From positions 1 through 36,594 of the forward strand of contig NZ_BONQ01000205.1 in assembly GCF_016862795.1 (NCBI RefSeq): a DNA stretch of 36,594 bases, written 5' to 3'. Shown in pieces: positions 5,001 through 24,795 of this stretch. How positions within the stretch are numbered: the first letter of the stretch is position 1; each line of letters opens with the position of its first letter. Below the pieces are notes generated by a model. That model did not search any database, was not told the DNA's origin, and worked only from the letters and a program-made list of their open reading frames with translations. Both the position numbers and the translations under genes were made by a program. The DNA is from Dactylosporangium siamense. Its GTDB lineage: Bacteria; Actinomycetota; Actinomycetes; Mycobacteriales; Micromonosporaceae.

Positions 5001-5052
5001 ACTGTCCGGCACATACGCGGTGCTGGACGGGTTCGCGGTGACGTCGGCCTGA
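2029..5052 (+). CDS. Secreted right-handed parallel beta-helix protein with tandem C-terminal modules
   Basis: A 1007-residue exported protein. The ATG at 2029 follows GAAAGGA (2017-2023), and the first 26-30 residues are a Sec signal peptide (MNRVRLLLAGVVATAAGLAP..., ending near TSA/ATA). Residues about 30-640 have the TFYASPAG...GTYRL start and repeated N-rich rungs (NNVLYDL, SNNLFHDY, GNVAFNG, NNYFSAG) of the pectate-lyase-like parallel beta-helix superfamily; many members are polysaccharide lyases or hydrolases, but no family-specific catalytic set could be assigned. About 690-757 resembles an IPT/TIG immunoglobulin-like domain. Residues 761-886 and 887-1007 are two nearly identical modules ending in GTHTIVVTKLSG-Y-AVLDGFAV, a beta-sandwich pattern probably binding carbohydrate or cell wall. 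It has its own promoter (1861) and is followed by a strong hairpin at 5071. Function as a polysaccharide-acting enzyme is inference. Confidence 0.9.
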   Translation: MNRVRLLLAGVVATAAGLAPVQPTSAATAATFYASPAGAGSACTQAAPCSLTGAQGAVRAKLAADPGADVQVLLADGTYRLSSPWKFTAADSGSAGHPVVWRAAPGAAPVISGATRVTGWTQEGTSGVWSAPVPAGSQTRQVYVDGKKVPVAGAALSDLGWTGSWTGSSSGYNINTDANAKAWFGARTAAEVARVEFDYPGGNGPWTESRCPVASYTASTATLTMAQPCWTNVTNRAAFSQGSGGLPSMSVNTKPARIDNARALLSPGEWLLDGNRLYYQPESWQQMQNLAVELPRLESLLQGAGTLANPLHDVTFTGLQFSYATWNDPSRGFSDVQSNLRITEGRNQGMCNFANPAGSCPWGALTQPLANVAFTATTNLTLAGNRFVNLGGAGLSVMYGARNTLIQGNEFTDIASTALLLGCTYDPTPTNAGEAQGIKDHCTPDPAAVSGDSVGLNEILTNTTVSDNVIHHIGTDYSSACGITLLFSRGTKITNNVLYDLPYTAITAGVIQGHVDQASTPQNSTNINESNTISNNLFHDYMSVRSDGGAIYVEGHQAGYVNKSDGTIDPVATLAKGLQVKGNVAFNGRNTNFTYYDDAGAEWINWEGNVAFSAGGSAQGGCSPTGHFWIRNNYFSAGTQSYPCAQPVDSNASGNVSIPATPGPTSIPTSILAAAGLTSAYVAQPNAGAPQVRYISPTNASQVLIGGHGFTSTTPVYVKNVRVTNVQFVSGGFLIVPIPSGTTTADIRVGDGNGGPVTPGRIDNTDSRILYSGFSQQSGRTYGDLNGDVHFASANGSTATLTFTGTGISVYGEQNTDQGNLGISIDGGTQVTVNTVPSDGVRHANVAVYTRTGLSAGTHTIVVTKLSGNYAVLDGFAVLNTGPTTTRMDNTDSRIAYSGFTLQSGRTFGDLNGDIHYATTNGSTATLTFTGTGITVYGEQNTDQGNLGITIDGGTQVTVNTVPTDGVRHANVVVYTRTGLTAGTHTIVVTKLSGTYAVLDGFAVTSA
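4309..5049 (+). repeat. Tandem in-frame duplication of a ~125-residue module
   Basis: The segments 4309-4686 and 4687-5049 encode two copies of a module starting RIDNTDSRI-YSGF / RMDNTDSRIAYSGF. They are close to identical in DNA as well as protein; long stretches such as the one encoding EQNTDQGNLGI and the one encoding DGGTQVTVNTVP match base for base. Such nucleotide similarity points to recent duplication or continuing gene conversion within the gene. Confidence 0.85.
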
Positions 5053-9549: not shown

Positions 9550-9750
9550 TCACAGGGGGTCACGGACGATCCCGCCGTGGACGCGGCGGCCGATGCGGGT
9601 GCCGACGCGGTCGCAGTCGCGGTTGGCGGTGGACGCGGAGACGTGGAAGCGTTGCGCCACCTCGCGGACGGTGACCGCGCCCACGGTCAGCACCTGTTCG
9701 ACGATCCAGCGGTGCCGCAGCTCGGGCAGCACCGTGATGGCGCCGGTCAT
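9550..9750 (-). CDS. DeoR-type helix-turn-helix protein, 66 residues, lacks sensor domain
   Basis: The product MTGAITVLPELRHRWIVEQV... contains a DeoR N-terminal winged helix: RHRWIVEQVLTVGAVTVREVAQ, then the recognition-helix region FHVSASTANRDCDRV, ending in the wing VHGGIV that closes this domain in full-length DeoR regulators. The protein stops three residues later, whereas DeoR regulators normally carry about 180 more residues forming a phosphosugar-binding domain. Its ATG overlaps the stop codon of the upstream permease (ATGA, 9747-9750), so it is probably translated by coupling as the last gene of the sugar operon. The recognition helix is slightly unusual (STANRDCDRV where STIRRDLD is common). 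It may be a small DNA-binding protein or a decaying regulator. Confidence 0.6.
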   Translation of the reverse strand: MTGAITVLPELRHRWIVEQVLTVGAVTVREVAQRFHVSASTANRDCDRVGTRIGRRVHGGIVRDPL

Positions 9751-10613
9751 CCCTTCACGCTCCCGGCGAGCAGCCCACGGACGAAGAAGCGCTGCATCGA
9801 CAGGAACACGATCAGGGGCAGCAGCATCGAGACGAAGGCGGCGGCGGACAGCAGGTACCAGGCGCTGCCGCGGCTGCCCGCCAGGTTGGCCAGGGCGACC
9901 GTCATCGGGTTGGTGCCGGGGGTGTTCGCGAAGGTCAGGGCGACCAGCAGGTCGTTCCACACCCAGAGGAACTGGAAGATGCCGAACGCGGCGACGGCCG
10001 GCACGAGCAGCGGGGCGAGGACCCGCAGGAAGATCTGGACGTGGCCGGCGCCGTCGACGCGGGCCGCCTCGACGAGTTCCTTCGGCAGGCCGCGCATGAA
10101 GTTGTGCAGCAGGAAGATGGCCAGGGGCAGCGAGTAGACGGTGTGTGAGATCCACACGGGCCAGTAGGTGCCGGCGAGGCCGGCGTCGACGTACAGGTTG
10201 AGCAGCGGGATCAGGGTCACCTGGATCGGCACGATCTGCAGCGCGAAGATGAGCACGAAGAGCAGGTCGCGGCCCTTGAAGTCGATCCAGGCGAGGGCGT
10301 AGGCGGCGATGAGCGCGATGGCGAGCGGGGCCAGGACCGATGGCAGGGTGATGACGACGGAGTTGACGAAGGCCTGGGACAGCGACCGGCCGGAGGTCTG
10401 GCTCTCCAGGACCTGCCGGTAGTTGTCGAGGGTGAAGCTCGTGGCGGTCCACCAGCCGGTCCGTTGGATGTCGGCCTGCGGGCGGAACGACGTGACGAGC
10501 AGGCCGGCGGTCGGCAGGCTCCACAGCACGGCGATGACGACCGTGGCGAGCGAGGCGATCGGTGAGGACAGGCGCTTGCGGGCCGTGGCCGATCGTTCGG
10601 AGATGGCTTGCAT
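9747..10613 (-). CDS. Sugar ABC transporter permease (MalG/CUT1 type)
   Basis: An inner-membrane subunit of a carbohydrate uptake ABC importer, 288 residues. It has an N-terminal membrane helix (SLATVVIAVLWSLPTAGLLVTSF), several further helices and the cytoplasmic EAA loop ELVEAARVDGAGHVQIFLRV-LAP that docks on the ATPase; the C-terminal FVRGLLAGSVKG is characteristic of MalG-like permeases. ATG 10613 overlaps the stop of the preceding permease (ATGA, 10610-10613 region), implying coupled translation. No ATPase gene is in this operon, so the importer probably uses a shared MsiK-type ATPase, as many actinobacterial CUT1 systems do (inference). Confidence 0.93.
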   Translation of the reverse strand: MQAISERSATARKRLSSPIASLATVVIAVLWSLPTAGLLVTSFRPQADIQRTGWWTATSFTLDNYRQVLESQTSGRSLSQAFVNSVVITLPSVLAPLAIALIAAYALAWIDFKGRDLLFVLIFALQIVPIQVTLIPLLNLYVDAGLAGTYWPVWISHTVYSLPLAIFLLHNFMRGLPKELVEAARVDGAGHVQIFLRVLAPLLVPAVAAFGIFQFLWVWNDLLVALTFANTPGTNPMTVALANLAGSRGSAWYLLSAAAFVSMLLPLIVFLSMQRFFVRGLLAGSVKG

Positions 10614-11578
10614 CACGCCCCCCACCGGCGCAGTTGCCGGATGTTGTACAGGATGACCGGTAGGACCAGCACGAACAGGAGCACGGCGAGCGTCGAGCCG
10701 AGGCCCTGGTTGTCGGAGCGGAAGCTTTGCGTGTAGAACTCGTTCGCCACGACGCTGGTGTCGAACTGCCCGCCGGTCATGGTGCGCACGATGTCGAAGA
10801 CCTTGAGGGTCCAGATCGCGATCGTGGTGAGCACGACGACGATCGTGGGGCGGATGCTCGGCAGGGTGATGTTGCGGAACAGGCCGATGCCGGTGACGCC
10901 GTCCAGCTGCGCCGACTCGATGATCTCCACCGGGATCTCCTTGATGGCGGCGGAGAGCACGGTCATCGCGAAGCCCGCCTGGATCCAGATCATCACCACG
11001 ACGAGCAGCAGGGTGTTGAGCGGCGCGTTGATGAGCCACTGCTGCGGGGTGCCGCCGAGCGTGACGAGGATCTGGTTGAGCAGCCCGATCTGGGAGACGC
11101 CGGGCAGGTCGGGGCGGTACTCGTAGACGAACTTCCAGATGATCGACGCGCCGACGAACGAGATCGCCATCGGCAGGAAGACCAGCGCCTTGGCGAAGGA
11201 CTCGAACCGGCTGCGGTCGACGAGGACGGCGTAGACGAGTCCGATCGCGGTCGCGGCGAGGGGCGACAGCAGGACCCAGATGGCGGTGTTGCGCAGCACG
11301 TGCAGCTGTTCGGCGGAGCTGAAGATGCTGACGTAGTTGTCGAGGCCGACGAACTGCGCGCCGTGCGCGTCGAACAGCGACTCGTAGACGGTGCGCAGCG
11401 CCGGGTACACGACGGCGACCGCGAGGCCGAGGACGGTCGGGGCCAGGAACAGCCAGGCCAGCCGGCGGTCGGCCTTCGGGCCGTTGAAGCGCCCGGCAAG
11501 GAGCAGGATCACCGTCACCACGAGAGCGAACGCCCCGAGGCCGAGGGCGAGCTGTCCCAGCTTCGCCGCGATTTCCAT
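10613..11578 (-). CDS. Sugar ABC transporter permease (MalF/UgpA/CUT1 type)
   Basis: The partner permease, 321 residues. It has an N-terminal helix (LALGLGAFALVVTVILLLAG), then the MalF-like core starting WLFLAPTVLGLAVAVVYPAL, a periplasmic segment (GLDNYVSIF) and the EAA loop EIIESAQLDGVTGIGLFRNITLP near residues 218-240. The ATG at 11578 is preceded by GGAGG (SD spacing about 6 nt). It lies 57 bp after the solute-binding protein gene, with a strong hairpin in the gap, and overlaps the next permease by 4 bp. Confidence 0.93.
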   Translation of the reverse strand: MEIAAKLGQLALGLGAFALVVTVILLLAGRFNGPKADRRLAWLFLAPTVLGLAVAVVYPALRTVYESLFDAHGAQFVGLDNYVSIFSSAEQLHVLRNTAIWVLLSPLAATAIGLVYAVLVDRSRFESFAKALVFLPMAISFVGASIIWKFVYEYRPDLPGVSQIGLLNQILVTLGGTPQQWLINAPLNTLLLVVVMIWIQAGFAMTVLSAAIKEIPVEIIESAQLDGVTGIGLFRNITLPSIRPTIVVVLTTIAIWTLKVFDIVRTMTGGQFDTSVVANEFYTQSFRSDNQGLGSTLAVLLFVLVLPVILYNIRQLRRWGA

Positions 11579-11635: not shown

Positions 11636-12982
11636 CTACTTGGGCCAGGCCGCTTCGATCGCGTCGAGGGTGGCCTTGGTGGACTGTCCGGTCACCCAGT
11701 TGGTGCCCTGCTTCCAGAAGGCGTTGGTGCCGACGGCGCCGGGCATCTGGTCGGAGCCGTCGTAGCGGAACACCGACTTCGGGTCCTGCAGGATCTGCGC
11801 GGACAGCTTGTCGATCGGGTTGGTCAGCTTGCTCGCGTCCATGCCGGTGTTGGCGCTGATCCAGCCGCCGCCGGGGGTGCTCGCGACCTTCTCGTTGGCC
11901 CACGTGTCGGAGGCCAGGAAGGTCTGGAACGCCTTCACCTCGGGCCGGTCGGAGAACGCGACCACGAACTCGCCGCCGCCGAGGACGGGCTTGCTGGTGT
12001 CGTCCTTGCTCGGGAAGTAGAACGCGTAGATGTCGCCGTCGGGTGAGACGTTGACGCCCTTCGGCCAGTTCTGCGCGTAGAACGAGCCCTGCCGGTGCAG
12101 GCTGCACTGGCCCTGCAGGATCGGCAGGCCGGCGTCCTGGAACTGGGTCGACGCCACGCTCTTCACGTCACCGAGGCCGCCGTTGACGAAGGCGGGGTTC
12201 TTCAGGTATTCGCCGACGGCGTCGAGGGCGCCGGTCGCCTCCGGGCCGTTGAACGGGATCGTGTGGTTGACCCAGTCGTCGTAGGCCTTCGGGCCGGACA
12301 GGCGGAGCATCATGTCCTCCATCCAGTCCGTCACCGGCCAGCCGGTCGCGTCGCCGGACCCGATGCCCACGCACCACGGCTTCTGCCCGCCCGCGGCGAT
12401 CTTCTCCGACAGCGTCTTGAGCTCGTCGAGGGTCTTGGGCACCGTGTATCCCTTGGCCTTGAACTCCTTCGGGGAGTACCAGACGAAGGACTTCACGTTG
12501 GCGCCGAGCGGCGCGCCGTAGACCTTGCCGTTGACGGTGACGTAGCCCTGCCAGGACTCGCTCCAGAACTTCTTCACGTTGGCCACGACGGTGTCCGGGG
12601 CCTGCACCGCCTTGCCGGTCTCGACGAGCTGCTTGACGAGCCCGGGCTGCGCGAAGATCGCGAGGTCCGGCGGGTTGCCGCCCTTGATGCGCACCTGGAC
12701 CTGGGTGTCGAACTCCTTCTCACCCTGGAACTCGACCTGGATGCCGGTGCAGCGTTCGAAGTTCTTGTAGGAGTTGATGTGCGGCTCGTCCTCGGGCGCG
12801 ACGATGCCGGAGTACAGCGACACCTTCTTGTCCTTGAACGTGCCGTACTGCTGGTAGGCCTCGCAGCCGGCGGTGCCCTGGGCCGTGTCGCCGGCGGTGT
12901 CGGCGCAGGCGGCGAGCAGGAGGGTGGCGGCGGCGATGCTGAGGGCGCGACTGAGAACGCGGATGGGGGGTGTCCGTCTCAT
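11636..12982 (-). CDS. Sugar ABC transporter substrate-binding lipoprotein
   Basis: An extracellular solute-binding protein of family 1, 448 residues, that captures sugars and delivers them to the permeases. The signal peptide MRRTPPIRVLSRALSIAAATLLLAAC ends in a lipobox with Cys26. The mature part has the CUT1 binding-protein signs GIQVEFQGEKEFDTQVQVRIKGGNPPDLAIFAQPGLVKQL, VNGKVYGAPLGANVKSFVWYSPKEF, and a central Trp/Asp-rich region (GWPVTDWMEDMMLRLSG) typical of a sugar-binding cleft. The ATG at 12982 follows GGAAGG and overlaps the stop of the upstream GH1-like gene (ATGA, 12979-12982). The hairpin downstream probably raises its expression over the permeases. The ligand is likely an oligosaccharide released by the GH30 enzyme of the same regulon, but the sequence does not identify it. 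Confidence 0.93.
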   Translation of the reverse strand: MRRTPPIRVLSRALSIAAATLLLAACADTAGDTAQGTAGCEAYQQYGTFKDKKVSLYSGIVAPEDEPHINSYKNFERCTGIQVEFQGEKEFDTQVQVRIKGGNPPDLAIFAQPGLVKQLVETGKAVQAPDTVVANVKKFWSESWQGYVTVNGKVYGAPLGANVKSFVWYSPKEFKAKGYTVPKTLDELKTLSEKIAAGGQKPWCVGIGSGDATGWPVTDWMEDMMLRLSGPKAYDDWVNHTIPFNGPEATGALDAVGEYLKNPAFVNGGLGDVKSVASTQFQDAGLPILQGQCSLHRQGSFYAQNWPKGVNVSPDGDIYAFYFPSKDDTSKPVLGGGEFVVAFSDRPEVKAFQTFLASDTWANEKVASTPGGGWISANTGMDASKLTNPIDKLSAQILQDPKSVFRYDGSDQMPGAVGTNAFWKQGTNWVTGQSTKATLDAIEAAWPK

Positions 12983-14184
12983 GATTGCCTTCCTTGACAG
13001 AGTGCTTGAAAGACGTCGAAGAGCTCGTTGGGCCGGCGGGGGAAGCCGCCCACGTCGTCGGTGTCCAGGGTCACCAGGCCGAGCCGGTGCAGGTGCTGCT
13101 CGACGGGGTCGAGCGCCTCCCGGTACTGCCAGCGGATCTGGTCGAAGAACGGCCACCAGATGTAGCCGGCGATCTCGACCTCTGAGCGGAGCTTGTGGAG
13201 CAGGGCGACGGAGTCGCGCAGCCAGGCGATGCGCTGCGCCATCGTGCCTTCGTAGCTGGTCTCGGTCACCATGACGGGGACGCCGTAGCGGGCGGCGGTC
13301 TCGCGGATGATCTCCTCGAGCCCGGCGACGCCGTCGTCGCGTTCCTGAGCGGCGCCGCCGGGGCCGTCTTCGTGCACGAGCGTCGACCACATCGGGTAGT
13401 AGTTGATCCCCATGACGTCCGGCCGGGCCGGGTTCGACGCGAACCAGGTCAGGTCGTCGTCGGTGAAGCCGTGCTCGCGCAGGTAGCCGAGCAGCGGGTG
13501 GCCTTCGCCGACCATGCCGTTGAGCAGGTCGCCGCACAGCCACCGGCGTTCGTTCAACACGCCGGAGTCGCCGGACGGGTAGCGGAAGGACGCCTCCACG
13601 TGCACGAAGGTGGCCTTGCCGCCGGTGGCGTCGGTGATCGCCCGTTGCGAGCCGACGACGCCTTTCGCGATCGCCCGCATCATCTGCAGGTAGCCGTCGT
13701 CGCCGGTGAGGTACGGCGGCCAGGTCCCGGACTCCCCGCACAGCCGGGCCGTCCACTGCGGTTCGTTCAGCGGGGTCCAGGCGGTGAGCCGGTCGCCGTA
13801 GCGTTCGGCGAGCGCGAAGGCGTACTCGGCGACCGCCTGCGGGTAGCGGTGGTTGATGAAGTGGTTGTCGAGCCATTCGGGGGTGCCGTAGTGCACGAGG
13901 TCGACGATGACCTCGAGGCCGAGTTCGCAGAGCCGGTCGACGACCCGGTCGGCCCAGTCCCACACGTACGTCCCGGGTGCGGGGTTGATGCGGTACCACG
14001 GCAGCCCGTAGCGGACGGTGTTCGCGCCGGACGCCTTGACCAGGTCGAGGTCGCCGGCCCAGCGGGTGTAGTGCTGGGTCAGCTCGTACTCGTCGAGCTT
14101 GCGGCGGCCGAGCGCGGTGTGCGCGATGAACGTGTCCTCGATGCCCACGCCGAGTCGCAGGACGCCGTCGGAGAACTGGTTCAT
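12979..14184 (-). CDS. GH1-like beta-glycosidase (clan GH-A)
   Basis: A cytoplasmic TIM-barrel glycoside hydrolase, 401 residues. Motifs: YRINPAPGTYVWDWADR (66-80) near strand 2, the acid/base site TPLNEPQW with Glu141, and the nucleophile site VMVTETS with Glu308, both acids of a retaining enzyme. GINYYPMW and WWPFFDQIRW resemble family 1 beta-glucosidases, although the protein is shorter than typical GH1 enzymes (about 450). No signal peptide, so it acts on imported oligosaccharides. The ATG at 14184 overlaps the GH2 stop (14181-14184), and its own stop overlaps the binding-protein start. Sugar and linkage specificity cannot be read from the sequence. Confidence 0.85.
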   Translation of the reverse strand: MNQFSDGVLRLGVGIEDTFIAHTALGRRKLDEYELTQHYTRWAGDLDLVKASGANTVRYGLPWYRINPAPGTYVWDWADRVVDRLCELGLEVIVDLVHYGTPEWLDNHFINHRYPQAVAEYAFALAERYGDRLTAWTPLNEPQWTARLCGESGTWPPYLTGDDGYLQMMRAIAKGVVGSQRAITDATGGKATFVHVEASFRYPSGDSGVLNERRWLCGDLLNGMVGEGHPLLGYLREHGFTDDDLTWFASNPARPDVMGINYYPMWSTLVHEDGPGGAAQERDDGVAGLEEIIRETAARYGVPVMVTETSYEGTMAQRIAWLRDSVALLHKLRSEVEIAGYIWWPFFDQIRWQYREALDPVEQHLHRLGLVTLDTDDVGGFPRRPNELFDVFQALCQGRQS

Positions 14185-16802
14185 GACGCGGCTCCGATCA
14201 GGTCGGCGAGGGTGGCCACGGCGGTCGGGTCGTCGCGCAGGACGGCGTCGACGAGCGGCAGCTGGCACAGCCACAGCCAGCCGTCGTGCACGGGCAGCGC
14301 GGCGACGATGACGCCGGTGAGGCGCCCCGGCAGGGGCTTGTAGACGCCGAGCACGGGCCGTTGTGGCCAGTCACGCCCGTCCAGGGACGTGTAGACGACG
14401 TGCGCGGTGACGCTGAGCAGTTCGGTGGTGACGACCGTGCCGGGTGGCACCGCGGACAGCACCGGCTCGCCGGTCGTGAACACGTTCGGCAGCGAACCCC
14501 ATTCGGTGGCCAGGTCCTTGACGGTGGCCGGCACCGGCAGGTGCGCGGCGCCGTCGACGCCCTGGGCGAGGACGAGCACGTTGCGCCCTTCGCGCAGCGC
14601 CGCGTCGACGAGCGGGCCGGTGGCCGCGGACAGCGCGCCTTCGCCGACGACCAGGCACCCGGTGTCGCCGGTCCGTGCGCCGACGGCGGTCAACGCCCGC
14701 TCGTCCGTCGCCGATCCCAGCAGGTGTACGGAATGCGCCGCCGTCGGCCGGGCGAGGACGGTGAGCGGGTAGCGCTGCTCGACCGGGGCCGCGCCGGGTG
14801 CCGTCCAGGTCACGGTCAGCTCGTGGGGTCCCGGCCGGGACGGCAGCGGCACGGTCACCGGATGCGGTGTCGTCGGCGTGTGCGGGGCGAGCGTGGCGGT
14901 GCCGGTGACGCCGTCGACGGACCATTCGCCGGTGACCGTCGCGGGCGTGTCGTTGGACACGACGACCGACAGGTCGACGGTTCCGCCGGCGAAGCCGTTC
15001 CAGGCGTCGTCGTCGTGCAGCGCGATCGGCAGGGTGGGCCGGCAGGCCGCGGCGACCTCGCGGATCGCCGGGTCCTTGCCGCGCCGTTCGAGGTCCCACA
15101 GCCCGTTGTATTCGTGCGGCACGTCGGTGAGCTCGGTGAGGCACCATCCGGCGATGCCGGGCGTGCTGCGGAACAGCTCGATCTGCAGCCGGTCGGCCAG
15201 GCCCTGGTAGGCCTGGGTCCCTTCGACGAAGGCGGCGGCGGTGCCGGGCCACGGCAGCGCCGCGATGTCCTCGGCGAGATGGTTCGGCCACCAGAACGGG
15301 GTCTGCGTGGCGGCTGTCTCCAGTGACGGCAGGCCCCAGTCGCCGAACTCGCTGACCAGCAGCACCTTGCCGGGCACGGGAGCGGCGGTGCTCTTCGCGC
15401 GCAGCGCGGCGAGGTACTGGCGGCTGAGTCGCCCGTACCAGTGCGCTGTGAGGATCGGGCTGCGGTAGACGTGTTCCGGGCCGGGTTCGACGGAGTCGTT
15501 CTCGATCACGGGGCGGGTGCCGTCGAGGTCGGTGACGAGGTTGTACAGCATCCGGGTGAACCGTTCGTAGCCCGGCGAGGCGCGCACGTCGCGGTCGGTG
15601 TTCTCGGCGCCGATCTCGTTCATCGCCGACCACAGCACGACGCTGGGGTGGTTGCGGTCGCGCAGGACCTGCTCGGCGGCGGCCGCGGCGCAGGCCCGGG
15701 CGAGGGGCCCGGTGTCGTCGAGCTCGTCGACCGCGATCGGCTCGGCGATCGGCAGGTCGCAGTGCACGAGCATGCCGAGTTCGTCGCAGACGTCGAGGTA
15801 CCGGGGCTCGAACGCCTTGATGTGCAGGCGCAGCATGGTGAGCCCGATCGCCTTCGCGGCGTGGACCTCCCGCTCGATCGCGTCGCGGGAGCCCTCGGCG
15901 TAGAGGGTGTCGGCGCGGAAGCCCTGCACGAGCGCGGCCTGCACGCGCAGCGGCGCGCCGTTGAGCAGGATCCGGTCGCCGTCGACGGTGACGGTGCGCA
16001 CGCCGAAGCGGACCTCGGTCTCGTCGCAGGCGTACCCGTCGGCGAGCACCACGAACCGGGCGTGGTGCAGGGCCGGCGACTGCGGCGACCAGCGCTCGAG
16101 GCCGTCCAGGCGCGGGTGCAGGACGACCTCGCAGTCGGCGTGTCCGGGGACCATGACCTCCTGGCGGGTGACCCGGCCGTCGACCGTGCACTCGACGACC
16201 GCGGCGATGCGGCCGCCGCGGTTGCGGATGCGGACCTTCGCCTCGGGTCGGGCCGGGTCGCCGTTGACGAAGGCGTCCTGGAGGGTGACGGCGCCGTGCC
16301 GGGTCAGGGTGACCGGTTGCCAGATGCCGCCGTAGGTCAGGTACAGGCTGGGCGGGCTGGGGAACAGGTCGTTCTTCCAGCCCTGCTTGCCGTGCGGACC
16401 GCGCGGGTGCTCGGGCGCGTCGCCGGGGATGTCGAGGACCCGCACGGCGATGACGTTGCGCCCGGCCCGCAGCACGCCGGTGGCGTCGACGGTGAACGGG
16501 GTGTACGCGCCGGCGTGCGCACCGACCTGGACGCCGTTGACGTGGACGGTCGCCTCGTCCATCACGGCGCCGAATGCCACGGTCCAGTGACCTTCGACGT
16601 CGTCGAGGTCGAACTCACGGACGTACCAGGCGACCCCGCTCAGATGCAGGTGTCCCTGCGCCTCCCACAGACCCGGCACCTGGATGGCGCCGAGGCCGGC
16701 CAGGGGCGGCGGGAGCGAGTCGGCGGTGTCGCCCGGATGGAAGCCCCAGGTGCCGTCGAGGCTGAGCACCGAGGTGCGGGCTTCGTGGTCGGCGATGGTC
16801 AC
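14181..16802 (-). CDS. GH2-family glycoside hydrolase
   Basis: A large cytoplasmic retaining exo-glycosidase, 873 residues, GTG start. Order: sugar-binding domain (about 10-170; LDGTWGFHPGD, VPGLWEAQG, VAWYVREF, DEATVHVNGVQVG), beta-sandwich (about 170-275), TIM barrel (about 275-600) with acid/base Glu396 in WSAMNEIG and nucleophile Glu485 in LLVSEFGDWG, and a roughly 250-residue C-terminal region of beta character not recognised further. GH2 includes beta-galactosidases, glucuronidases and mannosidases; which it is cannot be decided. No signal peptide. Start GTGA overlaps the upstream oxidoreductase stop (16799-16802) and the end overlaps the GH1-like gene. With GH1 it should trim imported oligosaccharides from the non-reducing end. 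Confidence 0.92.
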   Translation of the reverse strand: MTIADHEARTSVLSLDGTWGFHPGDTADSLPPPLAGLGAIQVPGLWEAQGHLHLSGVAWYVREFDLDDVEGHWTVAFGAVMDEATVHVNGVQVGAHAGAYTPFTVDATGVLRAGRNVIAVRVLDIPGDAPEHPRGPHGKQGWKNDLFPSPPSLYLTYGGIWQPVTLTRHGAVTLQDAFVNGDPARPEAKVRIRNRGGRIAAVVECTVDGRVTRQEVMVPGHADCEVVLHPRLDGLERWSPQSPALHHARFVVLADGYACDETEVRFGVRTVTVDGDRILLNGAPLRVQAALVQGFRADTLYAEGSRDAIEREVHAAKAIGLTMLRLHIKAFEPRYLDVCDELGMLVHCDLPIAEPIAVDELDDTGPLARACAAAAAEQVLRDRNHPSVVLWSAMNEIGAENTDRDVRASPGYERFTRMLYNLVTDLDGTRPVIENDSVEPGPEHVYRSPILTAHWYGRLSRQYLAALRAKSTAAPVPGKVLLVSEFGDWGLPSLETAATQTPFWWPNHLAEDIAALPWPGTAAAFVEGTQAYQGLADRLQIELFRSTPGIAGWCLTELTDVPHEYNGLWDLERRGKDPAIREVAAACRPTLPIALHDDDAWNGFAGGTVDLSVVVSNDTPATVTGEWSVDGVTGTATLAPHTPTTPHPVTVPLPSRPGPHELTVTWTAPGAAPVEQRYPLTVLARPTAAHSVHLLGSATDERALTAVGARTGDTGCLVVGEGALSAATGPLVDAALREGRNVLVLAQGVDGAAHLPVPATVKDLATEWGSLPNVFTTGEPVLSAVPPGTVVTTELLSVTAHVVYTSLDGRDWPQRPVLGVYKPLPGRLTGVIVAALPVHDGWLWLCQLPLVDAVLRDDPTAVATLADLIGAAS

Positions 16803-17812
16803 GACGCGTCCTCAGCGGGGACCTCGGCGGGGACACAGACGCGGCGGCCGGTCTCGAACGACTCGATGACGGCCATGGCCAGGGCGAGGGCGCGGCGGCC
16901 GGCGCGGGCGTGCACGGGCGGCTCGGCCCCGTCGCGCAGGGCGGCGAGGACCGCGTCGACGTGCCGGTCGAACGTGAGGTGGAACTGGCGGGCGGCGTCG
17001 TTGAAGTAGCCGGCCTGCCAGACGTGGCGGGTCTCGTCGCCGACGGACTGCAGGGTGAGCCGGGCGACGGTGTCCTCGATGAGCGCGCGGCCGGCGGTGC
17101 CGTTGAGCTCGATGAGCTGGGTGCCGGGGTACGCGTAGGAGGAGTCGTAGCTGCCGACGAGGCTGCCGACGGCGCCGTCGGCGAACCCGAGCGCGACCGC
17201 CAGGGTGGTGTAGACGCCGGTGCGGGTCTTGTCGGTGAGCTGCGCCGCGACGGAGGTGATCGGCCCGCACAGGTGCTCGAGCATGTCGAAGCCGTGGCAC
17301 TGGGTCTCGATGAGGTTGGCGTGCGGGGAGGTGCCGAAGTTGGGTTCACCGCCGAAGCGCCAGGTGGCGAAGACGAGGTCGCCGATCGCGCCGTTGGCGA
17401 TGGCCTGCCGGGCGCGCAGCACCGGCTCGGCGTAGCGGTGGTTGAAGTTGATGCCGAAGAACAGGTCGCGTTCGGCCGCCTCGGCGATGAGCTTGTCGGC
17501 CTCGGCCAGGTCGAACACGAGCGGCTTCTCCACCAGCAGCGGCACGCCGAGCCGGATCAGCTCCAGGGTGGGCTCGAAGTGGCCCTCGTTGGGCAGGCTG
17601 ACGGTGATGAGGTCGGGGCGTTCGGCCTCGACCATGGCGGTGAGGTCGGTGTACGGCCGGGTGCCGTACGCGGCGGCCCGCTCGGCGGTGCGCCGCTCGG
17701 TGCGGCCGGCGATCGCGACGAGGTCGGTGTCGGGACGCTGGGCGAAGATGCGGGCGTGCTGCTCGCCCCAGCCGCCGGCGCCGACGACGGCGACCTTCAG
17801 GCGGGCGGTCAC
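16799..17812 (-). CDS. Gfo/Idh/MocA-family NAD(P)-dependent oxidoreductase
   Basis: A sugar or cyclitol dehydrogenase-like enzyme, 337 residues, GTG start. The N-terminal Rossmann fold has VAVVGAGGWGEQHARIF (7-23); the signature VEKPLVF carries the conserved Lys of the EKP motif; FGINFNHRYAEP and an H-rich segment (NLIETQCHGFDMLEHLCGP) form the substrate site. Family members oxidise or reduce sugar hydroxyls, some within redox-assisted glycoside cleavage. The GTGA overlap at 17809-17812 couples it to the alcohol dehydrogenase and the one at 16799-16802 to GH2, placing it in the catabolic operon. Substrate unknown. Confidence 0.92.
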   Translation of the reverse strand: MTARLKVAVVGAGGWGEQHARIFAQRPDTDLVAIAGRTERRTAERAAAYGTRPYTDLTAMVEAERPDLITVSLPNEGHFEPTLELIRLGVPLLVEKPLVFDLAEADKLIAEAAERDLFFGINFNHRYAEPVLRARQAIANGAIGDLVFATWRFGGEPNFGTSPHANLIETQCHGFDMLEHLCGPITSVAAQLTDKTRTGVYTTLAVALGFADGAVGSLVGSYDSSYAYPGTQLIELNGTAGRALIEDTVARLTLQSVGDETRHVWQAGYFNDAARQFHLTFDRHVDAVLAALRDGAEPPVHARAGRRALALAMAVIESFETGRRVCVPAEVPAEDAS

Positions 17813-18813
17813 CGCTCGTCCTGCGTGACGACGACCTTGCCGGTCTCGCCGCCGAGGAACAGTTCGAACGCGGCGGTCAGCTCACTGGCCGGCAGCCGGT
17901 GGGTGATGATCCGGGACAGCTGCGGCAGGTGCGCCTGGAGCAGCTCCAGGTTGGCGGCCATCTCGGCGTAGGCGAAGTATTCGCTGCCCATGACGGTCCG
18001 CTCGGGGGCGATGAGGTCGGCGGACACGTCGAGGGTGAGGCCCTCGCCGTGGCCGACGCAGGCGAGCACGCCGCGCTTGCCGAGCACGGCGACCGCGGTC
18101 TGCCGGGCGCTCTGCTTGCCGGTGGAGTCGATCGCGGCGTCGACGCCGGTGAGCGTGACCGGCCGGGTCGCGTCGACCGGGGTGGCGCCGAGCTCCTCGG
18201 CGAACGCCAGCCGCCACGGCGACACGTCGCTGACGTAGACGGGGACGTCGGCGCCGTAGCGGATGCGGGCCATGACGAGGATGCCGAGGCCGATCGGGCC
18301 GGCGCCGGCGACGTAGAGCGACTCGACGTCGTCGCGCATGCGGTGGATCCGGCCGAGCGCGTGGCCGCTGGTGCCCATCACGTCGAGCAGGAGGGTCGCC
18401 TCGGCGGCGGTCACGCTGTCGGGGACGGCGAAGAAGTTGCTCTCGTGGACGATCTCGTAGGGGCCGTAGCCGCCGTCGGCGGTGAAGCCCATGTCGTTGC
18501 GCTTGGCGAGGCACTGGTTGGTGTACCCGAGCCGGCAGCTGCGGCAGGTGCCGCAGTAGTCCATCAGGAACACGGCGCCGCGGGTGCCCTCGGCGACCGT
18601 GGTGCCCTCCCCCGCGGCGACGACGGTCCCGGCCGCCTCGTGTCCGGGCACGACGGCCGAGCCCTCGAACCACTGCTCGCGGTCAGTGCCGCAGATCGCG
18701 TTCGCGCCCACGGCGAGCAGCAGTTCGCCCGGGCCGGGGTCACGGTACGTGTGCTCACGGAGCTCGATCTTTCCTTCGCCGACGAATGTCGGTGCTATCG
18801 CGGTGCGGGGCAT
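17809..18813 (-). CDS. Zinc-dependent medium-chain alcohol/polyol dehydrogenase
   Basis: First gene of the leftward sugar operon, 334 residues. MDR-family features: catalytic-zinc motif ICGTD (40-44) and GHEAAG (57-62), structural-zinc cysteines in DYCGTCRSCRLGYTNQC (four Cys), and the NAD-binding turn YVAGAGPIGLGIL. Such enzymes oxidise polyols or sugar hydroxyls. The ATG at 18813 has the strong ribosome-binding site AAGGGAGG about 6 nt upstream, fitting its role as the first cistron. Two LacI operators lie 77-117 bp upstream. It overlaps the next gene by 4 bp (GTGA). Confidence 0.92.
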   Translation of the reverse strand: MPRTAIAPTFVGEGKIELREHTYRDPGPGELLLAVGANAICGTDREQWFEGSAVVPGHEAAGTVVAAGEGTTVAEGTRGAVFLMDYCGTCRSCRLGYTNQCLAKRNDMGFTADGGYGPYEIVHESNFFAVPDSVTAAEATLLLDVMGTSGHALGRIHRMRDDVESLYVAGAGPIGLGILVMARIRYGADVPVYVSDVSPWRLAFAEELGATPVDATRPVTLTGVDAAIDSTGKQSARQTAVAVLGKRGVLACVGHGEGLTLDVSADLIAPERTVMGSEYFAYAEMAANLELLQAHLPQLSRIITHRLPASELTAAFELFLGGETGKVVVTQDER

Positions 18814-18889
18814 GTGCGCCTCCCTTGGTCTTTGCGTTGTAGCACGTCAGCGGCATTTTCCCGGCGTTCCCACGATCACTTCGCCGGTG

Positions 18890-18930
18890 TTTACCACGTG
18901 GCAGAGAAAGTTTTACCACGTGGCAGAGAA
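18890..18930. promoter_or_regulatory. Two LacI-family operators in the adh/lacI divergent region
   Basis: TTTACCACGTGGCAGAGAA occurs twice, at 18890-18908 and 18912-18930, 22 bp apart (two helical turns), each centred on the palindrome CCACGTGG. The same motif stands upstream of the GH30 gene. A CpG-centred palindrome of this length is typical of LacI-family operators, and a LacI gene begins 65 bp away, so auto-regulation and control of the leftward operon are likely. Confidence 0.85.
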
Positions 18931-18940
18931 CCTGTACAGT
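18912..18940 (+). promoter_or_regulatory. Probable lacI promoter
   Basis: A weak -35 TTTACC (18912-18917), 17-bp spacer and -10 TACAGT (18935-18940). The -35 box is inside the second operator, so the regulator would block its own promoter. The start codon is about 55 nt downstream. Confidence 0.5.
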
Positions 18941-18994
18941 GGCTCCACGAGCAGTCGCTCTCTGCTGCCTGATCCAGAACGGGGGGTGTCCGCG

Positions 18995-20029
18995 GTGGCC
19001 GTGACGCAGGAGGACGTGGCGCGCCGTGCCGGCGTGGCGCGCAAGACGGTGTCCAACGTCATCAGCGACTACCCGCACGTCAGCGACCGCATCCGCAAGA
19101 AGGTCCTCGCCGCCATCGAGGAGCTGGGCTACCAGCCCAACCGCGCCGCGCAGAACCTGCGCAGCGGCCGGTCCGGCATGATCGGGCTGGCCGTGCCGGA
19201 GCTCGACGTGTCGTACTTCGCCGAGCTCACCCGCCTCGTCGTGCAGGCCACCGAGCGCCGGGGCCTCACCGTGCTCATCATCCAGACGTTCGGCGACCTG
19301 ACCCGCGAGCACGCCTCCCTCAACGGGTTCGGCCACCAGCGGCTCATCGACGGCCTCATCTGCAGCCCGATCGCCAGCAGCGGCGAGGACATCCTCAACC
19401 GCGGCGGCGGCTTCCCGGTCGTGCTCCTCGGCGAACAGGTCTCCGTCGCGCCGGACCACGCCGGGATCGACCATGTCGGGATCGACAACGTCGCCGCGGC
19501 CCGCACCGCGACCGAGCACCTGCTGTCACTGCCCCGCAAGCGGGTGGCGTTCGTCGGCGCCAGCCGCAGCACCGACTCGCACATGGCCGACCTGCGCCTC
19601 GCCGGCTACCGGCAGGCCCTGGCGGCGGCCGGCGTCCCGCTGCGCCCCGAGCTGGTGTTCAGCGTCAACGGCTACCACCGCCGCGACGGCGCGGAGGCCG
19701 GCCGGCGCATCCTCGCCCTGCCCCCCGAGGAGCGCCCCGACGGCGTCTTCTGCGCCAACGACCTCCTCGCGCAGGGGCTGATGCGCGCCCTGCACGACAC
19801 CGGCTACCGCATCCCCCACGACGTGGCCGTCGTCGGCTTCGACGACATCGACGAGGCGACCTACAGCATCCCGTCGCTGACGTCGGTCTCCCCGGACAAG
19901 GCCCAGATCGCCGAGACCGCCGTGGCACTGCTCCTGGACCGGGTCAACGGCAGCGACGAGGCCGACCACGACACCGTCACCGACTTCTCCCTGGTCGTGC
20001 GGGAGAGCACGGCAGGACCGCGCCGCTGA
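18995..20029 (+). CDS. LacI-family transcriptional regulator
   Basis: Sugar-responsive repressor, 344 residues. The N-terminal HTH is VTQEDVARRAGVARKTVSNVISDYPHVSDRIRKKVLAAIEELGYQPN, with the hinge helix NRAAQNLRSGRSGMIGLAVP joining it to the periplasmic-binding-protein-like sensor (about 60-344; e.g. DGVFCANDLLAQGLMRAL and VPxDVAVVGFDDI-like segment). GTG 18995 is chosen because GGGGGG lies 8-9 nt upstream; GTG 18986 and 19001 are in-frame alternatives. It is divergent from the sugar operon and convergent with the GH30 gene, with its probable operators in front of both, which marks it as the local regulator. The inducer is presumably a sugar from the GH30 substrate. Confidence 0.94.
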   Translation: MAVTQEDVARRAGVARKTVSNVISDYPHVSDRIRKKVLAAIEELGYQPNRAAQNLRSGRSGMIGLAVPELDVSYFAELTRLVVQATERRGLTVLIIQTFGDLTREHASLNGFGHQRLIDGLICSPIASSGEDILNRGGGFPVVLLGEQVSVAPDHAGIDHVGIDNVAAARTATEHLLSLPRKRVAFVGASRSTDSHMADLRLAGYRQALAAAGVPLRPELVFSVNGYHRRDGAEAGRRILALPPEERPDGVFCANDLLAQGLMRALHDTGYRIPHDVAVVGFDDIDEATYSIPSLTSVSPDKAQIAETAVALLLDRVNGSDEADHDTVTDFSLVVRESTAGPRR

Positions 20030-20046
20030 ACGCCGCGGCGCGGTCC
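20015..20046. terminator. Bidirectional terminator between lacI and the GH30 gene
   Basis: GGACCGCGCCGC (20015-20026), 8-nt loop containing the lacI stop codon, GCGGCGCGGTCC (20035-20046): a perfect 12-bp stem placed to end both convergent transcripts. Confidence 0.75.
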
Positions 20047-20054
20047 CTTGGTCC

Positions 20055-21133
20055 TCAGCTGATCGTGACGGCCCGGTAGTTCGCCTTCACGTCCTCGGTG
20101 ACCGCGCCGACCTGGCAGTTGCTCAGCGCCGCCGTCCGCGACGGCTGCGCCACCCCGTCGAGCTTGAACGTGAACGTGCTGCCGGTCTTCGTCACCGTGA
20201 TCGTGTGCGGCACCGCCGGGTTGAACCCGCCGGGCAGCGCCTGGACCCCCGACCAGCCCAGGTCGGTGCCGCCGACCAGCGCGTGCGACACGAACGCGTT
20301 GTTCACCGGGTCGATCCACGCCTGCACGTAGTTCAGGTCGTCGGTGTAGCAGCCGTAGACGCCGTACTTCGGCGCCGCCGACGTGGTGCCGGCCGCGACC
20401 CGGCGCACCGACGCGCTGAGCGTGTAGTCGGTGGTGCGGATGCCGGCGGCGCCATAGATCGAGCTCCAGCCGGAGCCCAGCGACGTCGACTCGAGGCTCT
20501 GCGGCGCGTTGACGACCCAGTTGCCGCGGACCGCCTTCCCGCCGTAGATGTTGCCGGGGTTCGACCCGAACCGCGCGTCGCCCCACTCCAGGCGGTCCAG
20601 CACCTGGGCGTTGGTGAACTCGACCGCGGTGTCCTCGGTGACCAGGCCGACCTGGCACCCGCCGGTGATCGCCACGGTCCGCGACGGCTGCGCGACCCCG
20701 TCCAGCGCGAACCGGAACGTGCTGCCCTGCCGGTCGACGGTCAGCTTGTGGGCGACGCCGGTGTTGAAGCCGCCCGGCAACGCCTGCGTCCCGGACCAGC
20801 CCAGGTCGGTGCCGCCGAGCCGGGCGTGGGAGACGAACGTGGCGTTGACCGGGTCGATCCACGCCTGCACGTAGTTGTCGTCGTTCTGGTAGCAGCCGTA
20901 GACACCGTACTTCGGCGACGCCGACGTGGTGCCGGCCGCGGTGCGCCGCACGTCAACGCTCACCGAGTAGTCCGCGAGGCGCGTGTCGGCGCCGCGGTAG
21001 AGCGAGTTCCAGCCCGAGCCGAGGCTCGTGACGGTCGCCGCGGTGGCGCTGGGCAGGCTCCACGACCCGCGGGCCAGGCCACCGCCGTAGATGTTGGCGG
21101 CGTTGGTGCCGCGCACCGAGTCGCCCCAGCCGT
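20055..21133 (-). repeat. Tandem ~180-residue modules at the GH30 C-terminus
   Basis: Two copies, about 21133-20593 and 20592-20055, share WGD, NIYGG, LGSGW-S-Y, SPKYGVYGCY or APKYGVYGCY, NYVQAWIDPVN, GGTDLGWSG-QALPGGFN and DGVAQPSRT. The second lacks the linker that follows the first. They look like binding modules and give no sign of catalytic residues. Confidence 0.8.
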
Positions 21134-22670
21134 GCCGGCCGCCGCTCGTGCCACCGGCCCAGGTGAACGTCACCATCGCTCCGGCCGGGATCGAGTAGGA
21201 GAACGACTGCCCGCCGCTGCGCACCTTGGTCGTGGCGGCGGACCCGCCCCGGTTCCAGGCCACGACCGCGCGGGTGCCGTCCGGGTTGAGGAACGCCACG
21301 TCCTGCACACTGCTTGCGCCGAAACTGTTGGACGCGATCCGCTTCGCGCCCGGCTTCACGAACTTCGCGAGGTGCCCGGTCCAGTAGTAGCTCGGCCGGT
21401 ACGTCGCCGCGCCGGTGCTCTGGTTGATCGTGACGAGCGGCTGGATGGGAATGCCCGGATGCGAGGCCGAGTCACAGATGTTGGCCGCGCCGGTGTGGTA
21501 CGGCCCGGAGGTGGTGTCCAGCGCGACGTTCCACGCGATGATCGACTGGGCCCAGTTCCGCGGCCCGTTGACGAGGATGTCGCGGAAGTCGGTGTCGGTG
21601 CAGTACGGCGCCAGCTCCGACTGGTAGATCGGCTTGTACGGGAACCTGTCGTGCATGACGCCGAGCTGGTCGGGCGTCCCGCAGTAGCCGTGGAACGAGG
21701 ACCCTTCGGTCTCCGCGTAGGCGGCCGCGTTGTTGAACACGTCGGTCGGGTAGGTCGCGTCGAAGCACACCATGTCACCGGCGAAGATGCGCGGCTGCAG
21801 CCCCGCGTTGTAGAGCTTCGGCGCGAAGTGGTTGGTGATGAAGTCGATCGACTGCGCGGCGCTGAGCACCATCGTGTTGTAGGTGTTTCCGGTGCTCGGC
21901 TCGTTCTGCGCGCTCGTCGCCCAGATCGGGATGCCGCGCGCCTGGTAGGCCTGGATCGCCTTCACCAGGTAGTCGGCGTAGAGGCTGTAGTAGCCCGCCA
22001 GCAACGTGCCCGGATAGCAGTCCTGGCAGGCGGCCTTGAGGTTGTTGTTGTCCTTCATCCAGGCCGGCGCGCTCCACGAGGTCAGGTTGACCTTGATGCC
22101 GGGGTTGACGGCGAGGGCCTGCTGGATCATCGGCACGATCGTGGCGTCGTCGTGCGCGACGCTGAAACTGCCGAGCGTGGTGTCGCCGGCGACGTCGTCG
22201 TAGGTGTAGTAGCCACCGACGGTGCTGATGAAGTCGGTGGAGCCCATCGGCTGGCGCAGCATCGACAGGCCGATGCCGGTCGAGGTGTTGAACAGGTCGT
22301 TGAGCACCGCCGAGCGCTGGGTGGCGTTCTGTTTGGTGGCCATCAACCACGCCGACGAGTCGGTGAAGGTGGCACCGAAGCCGGTCATCGTCTGAAACGT
22401 GCGCTCGTCGTCGACGTCGATGGTGAGCGGGTTGGTGCCGGAGTCGGCGGCGAAGGCGAGCGCGGTCTGCGGGGTGAGCTTGCTGACCAGGTCACCGGTG
22501 GTGAGCCAGACGTTCACGGCCTGCCCGTCCGCGTAGGCGGGCGTTGCGGCCTGAGCGCAGACGACGACGAGCGCGGCAACGACGGCCGCGGCGGCGGCGC
22601 GTCGCTGAGGGGATCTTCCGGGTTGTCGAACGGGTTCTCGAGAGGGCTGTCGAGCGGGTTGTCGAGCCAT
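20055..22670 (-). CDS. Secreted GH30-family glycoside hydrolase with two C-terminal modules
   Basis: An exported retaining endo- or exo-glycanase, 871 residues. The signal peptide is long: an N-region rich in Gln-Pro and Arg (MARQPARQPSREP...), a hydrophobic core (AAAAAVVAALVVVCAQA) and cleavage near PAYA/D. Residues about 55-505 are the GH30 (beta/alpha)8 barrel with its beta domain: GFGATFTDSSAWLM (97-110), LRQPMGSTDF, acid/base Glu257 in SAQNEP and nucleophile Glu352 in YQSELAPYC. Known GH30 activities include beta-1,6-glucanase, beta-1,6-galactanase, xylanase and glucosylceramidase; the subfamily is undecided. Two repeats of about 180 residues follow, each with WGD...NIYGG, YGVYGCY and YVQAWIDPVN, resembling a concanavalin-like binding fold. 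ATG 22670 has GAGGAG upstream. Three CACGTG operators upstream put it in the LacI regulon. Confidence 0.9.
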   Translation of the reverse strand: MARQPARQPSREPVRQPGRSPQRRAAAAAVVAALVVVCAQAATPAYADGQAVNVWLTTGDLVSKLTPQTALAFAADSGTNPLTIDVDDERTFQTMTGFGATFTDSSAWLMATKQNATQRSAVLNDLFNTSTGIGLSMLRQPMGSTDFISTVGGYYTYDDVAGDTTLGSFSVAHDDATIVPMIQQALAVNPGIKVNLTSWSAPAWMKDNNNLKAACQDCYPGTLLAGYYSLYADYLVKAIQAYQARGIPIWATSAQNEPSTGNTYNTMVLSAAQSIDFITNHFAPKLYNAGLQPRIFAGDMVCFDATYPTDVFNNAAAYAETEGSSFHGYCGTPDQLGVMHDRFPYKPIYQSELAPYCTDTDFRDILVNGPRNWAQSIIAWNVALDTTSGPYHTGAANICDSASHPGIPIQPLVTINQSTGAATYRPSYYWTGHLAKFVKPGAKRIASNSFGASSVQDVAFLNPDGTRAVVAWNRGGSAATTKVRSGGQSFSYSIPAGAMVTFTWAGGTSGGRHGWGDSVRGTNAANIYGGGLARGSWSLPSATAATVTSLGSGWNSLYRGADTRLADYSVSVDVRRTAAGTTSASPKYGVYGCYQNDDNYVQAWIDPVNATFVSHARLGGTDLGWSGTQALPGGFNTGVAHKLTVDRQGSTFRFALDGVAQPSRTVAITGGCQVGLVTEDTAVEFTNAQVLDRLEWGDARFGSNPGNIYGGKAVRGNWVVNAPQSLESTSLGSGWSSIYGAAGIRTTDYTLSASVRRVAAGTTSAAPKYGVYGCYTDDLNYVQAWIDPVNNAFVSHALVGGTDLGWSGVQALPGGFNPAVPHTITVTKTGSTFTFKLDGVAQPSRTAALSNCQVGAVTEDVKANYRAVTIS

Positions 22671-22715
22671 GCACGTGCTCCTCGGCTGGCGGGCTCATGG
22701 AACAGGACAGCGTGA

Positions 22716-22762
22716 TTTACCACGTGGCAGAAGATTTATCACGTGGTAAGCCACGTGGCAAC
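22716..22762. promoter_or_regulatory. Cluster of three LacI-type CACGTG operators upstream of GH30
   Basis: TTTACCACGTGGCAGA (22716-22731), TTTATCACGTGGTAAG (22735-22750) and TAAGCCACGTGGCAAC (22747-22762). The first matches the lacI/adh operators for 16 bases; the second is the most symmetric. The GH30 start codon is 46 bp away on the left. A further GCACGTGC lies at 22671-22678 next to that start codon. Repression by the adjacent LacI protein is inferred. Confidence 0.82.
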
Positions 22763-22822
22763 ACCCGCCTGCCGGGCTCTGGCCCGGCCCGTTCCCGCCG
22801 GATCGACGACCGTAACCGGCGC

Positions 22823-22828
22823 TACAGT
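22823..22828 (+). promoter_or_regulatory. -10 box of a leaderless transcript
   Basis: TACAGT ends 6 nt before the GTG at 22835, the spacing of leaderless actinobacterial mRNAs; no ribosome-binding site precedes that GTG. A -35 element is not clear. Confidence 0.5.
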
Positions 22829-22834
22829 GATCCG

Positions 22835-23326
22835 GTGGATCCCGCCGCGTTCGACGCCCTGGCCGAGCCGTTCCTGCGGAAGGCGGCCGAATGGGCAGCG
22901 CGGGAGGGCTTCACGACGATCGATAGGTACACCTGCACGCCGGAGGTGATCGCCCGCGTCGAGGCCCAGATGGGCGTGACCTTCCCGGAGCAGTACAAGG
23001 CCTTCATGACGCGGTACGGCGGCGGCATGTTCGGCTACCTCGAACTGTTCCGGCCGGTCGATCCGGATGCGCCGGAAACGGACCTCGACATCCGGTCGGA
23101 GAACGACCTGGAGTTCCCCGACCGCGACTTCATCGCCGTAGCCCCGGTCGGCACCGGCGACTACTGGGGGTTCCCGGTGACCGATGGGCGCTGCCACGAG
23201 CAGATCTGGTTCCACTTCCACGACGGCTACGAACGGAAGCTCGTGGCCGCGGACTTCCTGGAGTTCGTCGCCGAGCACGGGCTGAAGAGTTCGAGCGATC
23301 GGGCGCTGGAACTCCGCAATCAGTGA
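22835..23326 (+). CDS. SMI1/KNR4 family protein
   Basis: A 163-residue soluble protein with the SMI1/KNR4 (SUKH-type) fold: the start VEAQMGVTFPEQYKAFMTRYGGGMFG matches the family's core (LP-YK-F---GGG), followed by FIAVAPVGTGDYWGFPV and IWFHFHDGYERKLVAADFLEFV. In bacteria, SUKH proteins are frequently immunity proteins for secreted or polymorphic toxins, though many are of unknown role. GTG 22835 is chosen because a TACAGT box lies at leaderless distance and homology begins soon after. The gene is convergent with a Fic-domain gene, 13 bp between the stops. A toxin-immunity relation is possible but unproven, since such partners are usually co-directional. Confidence 0.8.
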   Translation: MDPAAFDALAEPFLRKAAEWAAREGFTTIDRYTCTPEVIARVEAQMGVTFPEQYKAFMTRYGGGMFGYLELFRPVDPDAPETDLDIRSENDLEFPDRDFIAVAPVGTGDYWGFPVTDGRCHEQIWFHFHDGYERKLVAADFLEFVAEHGLKSSSDRALELRNQ

Positions 23327-24740: not shown

Positions 24741-24795
24741 CGCCGGCCATCGTGCCACGGCGGCATGCGTGGCGGCACCCGCATTCGTTGCTGAT

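Follow-up and report, generated by a model that had tools for sequence, protein, structure and literature searches.

A LacI-family regulator and candidate CACGTG operators at a GH30 glycan utilisation locus of Dactylosporangium siamense

A 36,594-nucleotide stretch of the Dactylosporangium siamense genome (contig NZ_BONQ01000205.1, analysed whole and hereafter called the window) carries a gene for a LacI-family regulator (18995-20029), which is transcribed divergently from an operon for sugar import and catabolism and is neighboured on its other side by a gene for a glycoside hydrolase of family 30 (GH30). Five palindromes with the core CACGTG lie in the two regulatory regions of this locus, and they are very probably the operators of the LacI protein, through which it would control lacI itself, the operon (named here adh after its first gene, for an alcohol dehydrogenase, ADH) and GH30. 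A regulon of this composition was proposed in a preliminary description of the sequence. It is real, with LacI as the putative binder, a role that had been read from gene position and is supported by the covariation of recognition helix and operator and by a second genome, that of Galbitalea sp. SE-J8, with its paired sites and the cross-species matrices.

Genes and candidate operators are collected in Table 1. The regulator belongs to the LacI family by its N-terminal helix-turn-helix (HTH) and C-terminal periplasmic-binding-like domains, both of which score above their cut-offs. The genes of the adh operon (from 18813 down to 9747 on the minus strand) overlap their neighbours by 1-4 bp, the sole exception being a gap of 57 bp between the binding protein and the first permease. 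Seven of the eight genes originally counted in the operon are clear, and the eighth is merely an HTH-only open reading frame (ORF) of 66 aa of the DeoR type, which may be a mini-regulator or a truncated remnant. The two dehydrogenases described earlier resolve into a zinc ADH and a Gfo/Idh/MocA protein (Gfo); the family models that fit them best, those of threonine 3-dehydrogenase and inositol 2-dehydrogenase, score below cut-off.

Table 1. Candidate operators and genes of the locus, in window coordinates.
Feature	Position	Strand	Details
Operator 1	18889..18906	+	Core CACGTG 18895-18900; lacI/adh divergent promoter
Operator 2	18911..18928	+	Core 18917-18922; lacI/adh divergent promoter; 22 bp from operator 1
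Operator 3	22715..22732	+	Core 22721-22726; upstream of GH30
Operator 4	22734..22751	+	Core 22740-22745 (TTTATCACGTGGTA); upstream of GH30; 19 bp from operator 3
Operator 5	22746..22763	+	Core 22752-22757 (AAGCCACGTGGCAA); upstream of GH30; 12 bp from operator 4, 12-bp cores abut
LacI-family regulator	18995..20029	+	344 aa; recognition helix GVARKTVSN; PF00356 59.8 bits, PF13377 130.9 bits
Zinc alcohol dehydrogenase (threonine/sorbitol dehydrogenase-like)	17809..18813	-	First gene of operon
Gfo/Idh/MocA oxidoreductase (inositol 2-dehydrogenase-like)	16799..17812	-	
GH2 glycosidase	14181..16802	-	873 aa
GH1-like glycosidase	12979..14184	-	401 aa
ABC sugar-binding lipoprotein	11636..12982	-	Divergent; closest solved chain is a xylo-oligosaccharide binder; start ATG read from sequence
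ABC permease (GlcT/UgpA type)	10613..11578	-	
ABC permease (GlcU/UgpE type)	9747..10613	-	
DeoR-type HTH-only ORF	9550..9750	-	66 aa; overlaps permease stop codon by 4 bp; eighth gene by overlap
GH30	20055..22670	-	871 aa; separate gene; secretion-type N-terminus by eye; two C-terminal CBM66-like jelly-roll repeats (20055-21155)

Each of the five candidate operators near lacI is an even palindrome centred on CG, as is usual for operators of this family. The 19-mer TTTACCACGTGGCAGAGAA is present as two identical copies (18890-18908 and 18912-18930) 22 bp apart, and as a third copy with two mismatches at 22716-22734, while 100 dinucleotide shuffles of the window gave no match to it. Both the repeat between the adh operon and lacI and the three palindrome variants upstream of GH30, 3.8 kb away (cores at 22721, 22740 and 22752), are thus present as first described. 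The lacI start lies approximately 98 bp downstream of the centre of operator 1 and 76 bp downstream of that of operator 2.

The sites are confined to this locus in the genome that encodes them (12.7 Mb in 296 contigs, the window lying on contig C205). The 14-mer TTTACCACGTGGCA has three exact places, every one inside the window, none with one mismatch, and 17 with two mismatches, one of these also in the window; with up to three mismatches there is no excess over a reversed-pattern control (150 + 150 per strand versus 209 + 219). The degenerate 13-mer TTRYCACGTGGYA likewise has four exact places, all in the window, and with up to one mismatch falls to the level of its control (14 + 17 versus 16 + 18). 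Random scatter of the motif through coding regions, which the preliminary description named as the observation that would count against it, is therefore not what is seen, as the exact 14-mer occurs in the window alone. The 17 two-mismatch loci were scored as possible further members of the regulon; one (L018) is the window itself, and the 16 others were rejected. Five of them reach 15-17, where the weakest training site has 20.0 (L005, L009 and L020 are without the central CG, and L004 and L012 lie inside strong ORFs), and the remaining 11 score at most 12.4. Across the family, TTNCCACGTGGNAA occurs at one place each in 12 of 300 genomes; the 3-kb loci surrounding these places gave no match to a LacI helix, and the places are therefore treated as chance occurrences or other elements. 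Across the phylum, the double CCACGTGGYA pattern was found in two of 396 genomes, our own and one other (G690), where a short array of CCACGTGG repeats lies in the first 20 kb of the contig and no locus protein is matched there above 45 bits.

Comparison of loci was carried out for the best 80 of 462 LacI relatives, all 80 of which were checked. A match to GH30 is found in one of these loci, that of Galbitalea sp. SE-J8 (L067), which is also the only one to carry relatives of ADH and Gfo at 45% identity or more; the earlier suggestion of an uncharacterised utilisation locus is a fair one in this light. Identities to the Galbitalea proteins are 67% for Gfo, 61% for ADH, 52% for LacI, 57% for the GH1-like protein, 65% for GH30 and 59% for its C-terminal module, with the GH2 (31%) and the permeases (31-35%) more distant, and the binding protein recognised by Pfam. 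Gene order differs between the two: in Galbitalea ADH and Gfo, with a GH43 gene beside Gfo, are divergent from lacI, a second unit consists of the binding protein, permeases and GH1-like gene followed by GH2 on the same strand, and GH30 forms a third. The 3.3-Mb Galbitalea genome contains six exact places of TRCCACGTRGCA, all in the locus and arranged as three pairs, which precede lacI/adh, the binding-protein operon and GH30; with up to one mismatch there is no excess over the control (14 + 10 versus 17 + 18). Spacing is the same in both species, 22 bp at lacI/adh and 12 bp at GH30, the window having an additional GH30 site 19 bp away. When a half-site matrix trained on Galbitalea is run on the window, the five sites rank 1-5 (18.8-21.4; next 11.2), and a matrix trained on the window ranks the six Galbitalea sites 1-6 in their locus (14.8-22.6; next 11.2), each matrix having been run on the one locus. 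The paired sites, together with this reciprocal ranking, are the strongest evidence that the sites would be functional and belong together. The LacI regulon is apparently local rather than global, given the confinement of sites to the locus of the regulator in both genomes, as judged by exact patterns.

An IS4/5-type transposase gene (L067 20055-20888, minus strand) adjoins the GH30 operators of Galbitalea, and the locus may therefore have moved horizontally. Relatives of Gfo at 1e-90 are found in five of 394 genomes of the class, our own included. In G1036 and G820 the ADH-Gfo pair is kept close to different LacI genes (identities of 30% and 40%) and the TACCACGTGGCA-type site is absent from the 39-40 kb taken; in G754 and G777 there was no LacI match within the stretches taken. 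The ADH-Gfo pair thus seems to be an exchangeable module, which alone does not define the regulon. The D. siamense genome encodes a second Gfo/Idh (G000:C105:10932-11891), 67-68% identical to that of the operon, and the 20 kb around it contain no other matches to locus proteins and no operators. A plasmid collection searched with the GH1-like protein at 1e-60 gave no match.

The type of operator changes with the recognition helix of LacI. We examined 67 LacI relatives at least 40% identical to the window protein, more distant ones being dropped, and sought cores within 350 bp upstream. Helices of the SVK or SIK type (48 sequences) are accompanied by a TACAACGTTGTA-type core in 42 cases, many of these being near-identical Amycolatopsis and Saccharothrix copies and so not independent. 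Helices of the ARK or ARR type, those of the window and Galbitalea, are accompanied by CACGTG cores in two of two cases, and no other member of the set has such a core (0/65). Over all 67 there are 45 AACGTT cores, two CACGTG, six related CG cores (ATCGTT, ATCGAT or AACGAT) and 14 without any. Reading outwards from the central CG, C at -1, A at -2, C at -4 and T at -6 are common to both operator types, -3 differs (A to C) and -5 differs in part. The two AR proteins form a single clade in a tree of 110 sequences (support 100/97), so the operator change appears to be one evolutionary event; the exact coding pattern of the AR helix, with G or C in third positions, is found in one of 300 genomes of the family, our own. 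Overlapping or abutting pairs of operators 11-12 bp apart recur in the subfamily (L036, L039, L042, L043, L044, L055, L064 and L175), and further pairs of this kind are those at 22734-22763 of the window and at 19994-20023 of the Galbitalea locus.

Loci with an SVK-type LacI, of which we consider the D. siamense paralogue on contig C91, those of genus g13 and those of Pseudonocardiaceae, encode regulators 46-51% identical to the window LacI. Overlapping operator pairs 11-12 bp apart are shared by C91 and the Pseudonocardiaceae examples. The SVK loci differ in having the operator TACAACGTTGTA/TACATCGTTGTA, in the single sites of g13, and in a GH43 (g13) or arabinofuranosidase-type protein (C91) in place of GH30. 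The C91 paralogue (48-50% identical, helix SVK) has kept an AACGTT operator, in an abutting pair TACAACGTTGAA-TACAACGTTGTA that contains the sole exact TACAACGTTGTA of the genome, and lies next to a gene whose product has an alpha-L-arabinofuranosidase C-terminal domain. The C-terminal module of GH30 is found in five of 150 family genomes, our own included. In three genomes of g13 (G012, G070 and G086) it is part of a GH43-type protein whose locus also encodes an SVK LacI, a GH2 and an ABC importer and has a single TACAACGTTGTA-like site (matching at 11 or 12 of 12) ahead of each of three units; in G092 it is part of a GH43 with no LacI relative nearby. Pfam was run on three of these four GH43-type proteins (L171, L172 and L174), L173 being assigned by module and locus similarity. 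Since the g13 loci combine the same module with a GH2 and an importer, the plan of the circuit seems common to both operator types.

The GH30 protein belongs to its family by PF02055 (112.9 bits) and PF17189 (61.4 bits), and its E257 and E352 align with the catalytic residues of BT3312. We lean slightly towards a regulon correctly delimited whose substrate is an arabinogalactan-type or other hemicellulosic glycan, with beta-1,6-linked glucan as a more tentative candidate. The former is favoured by the related SVK loci, which carry GH43 with the same C-terminal module as well as GH2, by the arabinofuranosidase-domain neighbour of the C91 paralogue, by the Galbitalea GH43 beside Gfo, and by the GH2, whose best solved match is a beta-D-galactofuranosidase. 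The score of GH30 against the NCBIfam endo-1,6-beta-glucanase equivalog NF053856 points the same way, being 264.3 bits, far below the curated cut-off of 700. Of the BT3312 residues named in its published description, Asn244 is replaced by Thr and Trp345 by Tyr356, and neither the positive-subsite residues His281, Asn282 and Asp286 nor the Cys393-Cys396 disulfide is kept. Against a substrate of this kind stands the best solved match of GH30, 5ngk (2.3e-57), which is the sequence of the BT3312 endo-1,6-beta-glucanase of GH30_3. The same description names seven residues of the -1 subsite and catalysis, of which six (Asp131, Trp179, Asn237, Glu238, Glu339 and Trp377) are retained as D146, W199, N256, E257, E352 and W380. 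A galactanase of GH30_5 is described as recognising an axial O4 through a Gln in a loop (PMC13431644), and the 16 matches of GH30 do not include 3clw, a GH30_4 structure with a cleft reported to resemble that of the GH30_5 galactanase. The C-terminal repeat, modelled from an alignment of seven sequences with AlphaFold2 (mean pLDDT 82.7), takes a jelly-roll fold; its own Pfam matches are weak. Among solved structures it is best matched by Bacillus subtilis CBM66 (E 1.1e-8, TM 0.70, 14% identity), and it is probably a carbohydrate-binding module.

It is unlikely that another regulator, such as the DeoR-type mini-protein or an unlinked factor, reads the sites, with lacI a mere neighbour. Such a regulator would be consistent with the position of the DeoR-type ORF as the last gene of the operon, with the indirect nature of the case for LacI binding, and with the partial annotation of ORFs in the Galbitalea locus. 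However, CG-centred palindromes precede most lacI genes of the subfamily and their type shifts with the LacI helix, and tblastn at 1e-5 with the mini-ORF finds nothing in the 80 loci, including that of Galbitalea, where the sites exist. That the repeats are a non-functional tandem duplication, upstream of two genes by chance, is highly improbable: the lacI/adh pair is indeed a near-perfect 22-bp tandem repeat, but Galbitalea keeps the 22-bp spacing with a different intervening sequence and has paired sites before GH30 and the binding-protein genes too. The ParB centromere parS (GTTnCACGTGnAAC) is also centred on CACGTG and literature on CCACGTGG with LacI includes ParABS, but we give practically no weight to the sites being parS or some other element of the CACGTG class with no role in sugar use, as TTA or TTG rather than GTT adjoins their cores and the six places of TGTTTCACGTGAAACA with up to two mismatches in the genome include four on contig C70 and none on C205.

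If the five palindromes are operators of LacI, the circuit can be envisaged as follows. Repression, autorepression and an oligosaccharide inducer are common features of the LacI family. In the absence of a sugar signal, a LacI dimer would sit on the palindromes with its recognition helices at the TACCAC/TGCCAC half-sites and its hinge at the central CG, and would thereby keep lacI, the divergent ADH-Gfo/Idh-GH2-GH1-ABC operon and GH30 repressed. The signal that frees LacI from the DNA would be an oligosaccharide that basal GH30 releases and the ABC system imports, or one of its breakdown products, and the levels of depolymerase, importer and cytoplasmic enzymes would then go up in concert. Binding, repression, autorepression, inducer and substrate are all inferred in this scheme.

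Several observations weigh against this reading. No recognisable core lies upstream of lacI in 14 of the 67 subfamily members, and the CACGTG class is drawn from two genomes of one clade, and so from what appears to be one event. Outside the core the palindromes are imperfect, their arms agreeing at 5-7 of 9 positions. A scan of both regulatory regions for consensus sigma-70 promoters found none, which leaves promoter occlusion unsupported; a TTTACC-17-TACAGT sequence seen by eye at operator 2 (8/12) is not claimed as a promoter. Finally, the AACGTT operator of the C91 paralogue scores 17.0 with the matrix trained on Galbitalea, near the 18.8 of the weakest window site, so cross-talk is possible by sequence and full insulation of the two circuits is not established.

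Other ORFs of the window also have domain matches. Just past the GH30 promoter are ORFs matching SUKH/SMI1-KNR4 and Fic/DOC domains (22544-23326, plus strand, and 23340-24758, minus strand), and a 1023-aa ORF at 1981-5052 (plus strand) has a carbohydrate esterase 2 N-terminal-like domain.

The local LacI regulon is a known kind of system, and the change of operator specificity is its modest novelty. The chances are about even that this change is a natural rewiring of LacI specificity in one clade, in which Ser-Val/Ile at helix positions 14/15 gave way to Ala-Arg and, in the operator, A gave way to C three bases from the centre. In such a rewiring, NT-3 would lie outside the published LacI code, and both the circuit layout and the close spacing of paired operators would have survived the change. 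A direct contact of Arg to the G opposite C-3 is predicted as its cause. Because the rewired circuit exists beside an unrewired SVK paralogue with a TACAACGTTGTA operator, the change may serve to keep two related sugar circuits apart. The regulator-operator pair could be swapped by few substitutions against relatives of around 50% identity, and would extend the LacI code to TVSN helices and NT-3. The GH30 utilisation locus is complete in one other genome here, and its inducer could point to the polysaccharide.

Ravcheev et al. (PMC4052901) report an even, CG-centred palindrome for most LacI sites and autoregulation for 72% of the regulators studied. As in the local regulators described there, an even CG-centred palindrome lies upstream of the window regulator and of a neighbouring catabolic operon with importer and glycosidases; the window LacI fits this category, and by analogy its autoregulation is likely. 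Its operators differ from the sites described there in their half-site TACCAC/TGCCAC, in the C third from the centre and in being paired. The string CACGTG is absent from the main text of that paper (its supplement and RegPrecise were not part of the search), and a literature search turned up no LacI regulon with a CACGTG-type operator, which is not proof of absence. In the code of Camas et al. 2010 (PMC2978694), residues 15/16 of the helix of TVSR proteins correspond to NT-5/-4 and residue 20 to NT-6; the mapping of our residue and base numbers onto that numbering is our own. Specificity residues at the start of the recognition helix and a central CG are common to that code and the window LacI, and the central CG and helix contacts agree with the family descriptions given in both papers. 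The window protein differs in its TVSN helix and in that the branches diverge mainly at NT-3 (A to C) with residues 14/15; the terms NT-3 and TVSN do not occur in the main text of that paper. It stands outside the TVSR class (TVSR with G at NT-6), T being found at NT-6 in 21 of 22 half-sites. The 1,6-beta-glucan polysaccharide utilisation locus of Bacteroides (GH30_3 BT3312, PMC5481569) similarly combines a surface or secreted GH30 with a further glycosidase under common control. It employs another regulator, SusD-type import and a GH3, in contrast to the ABC import, GH1-like and GH2 glycosidases and two dehydrogenases of the D. siamense locus.

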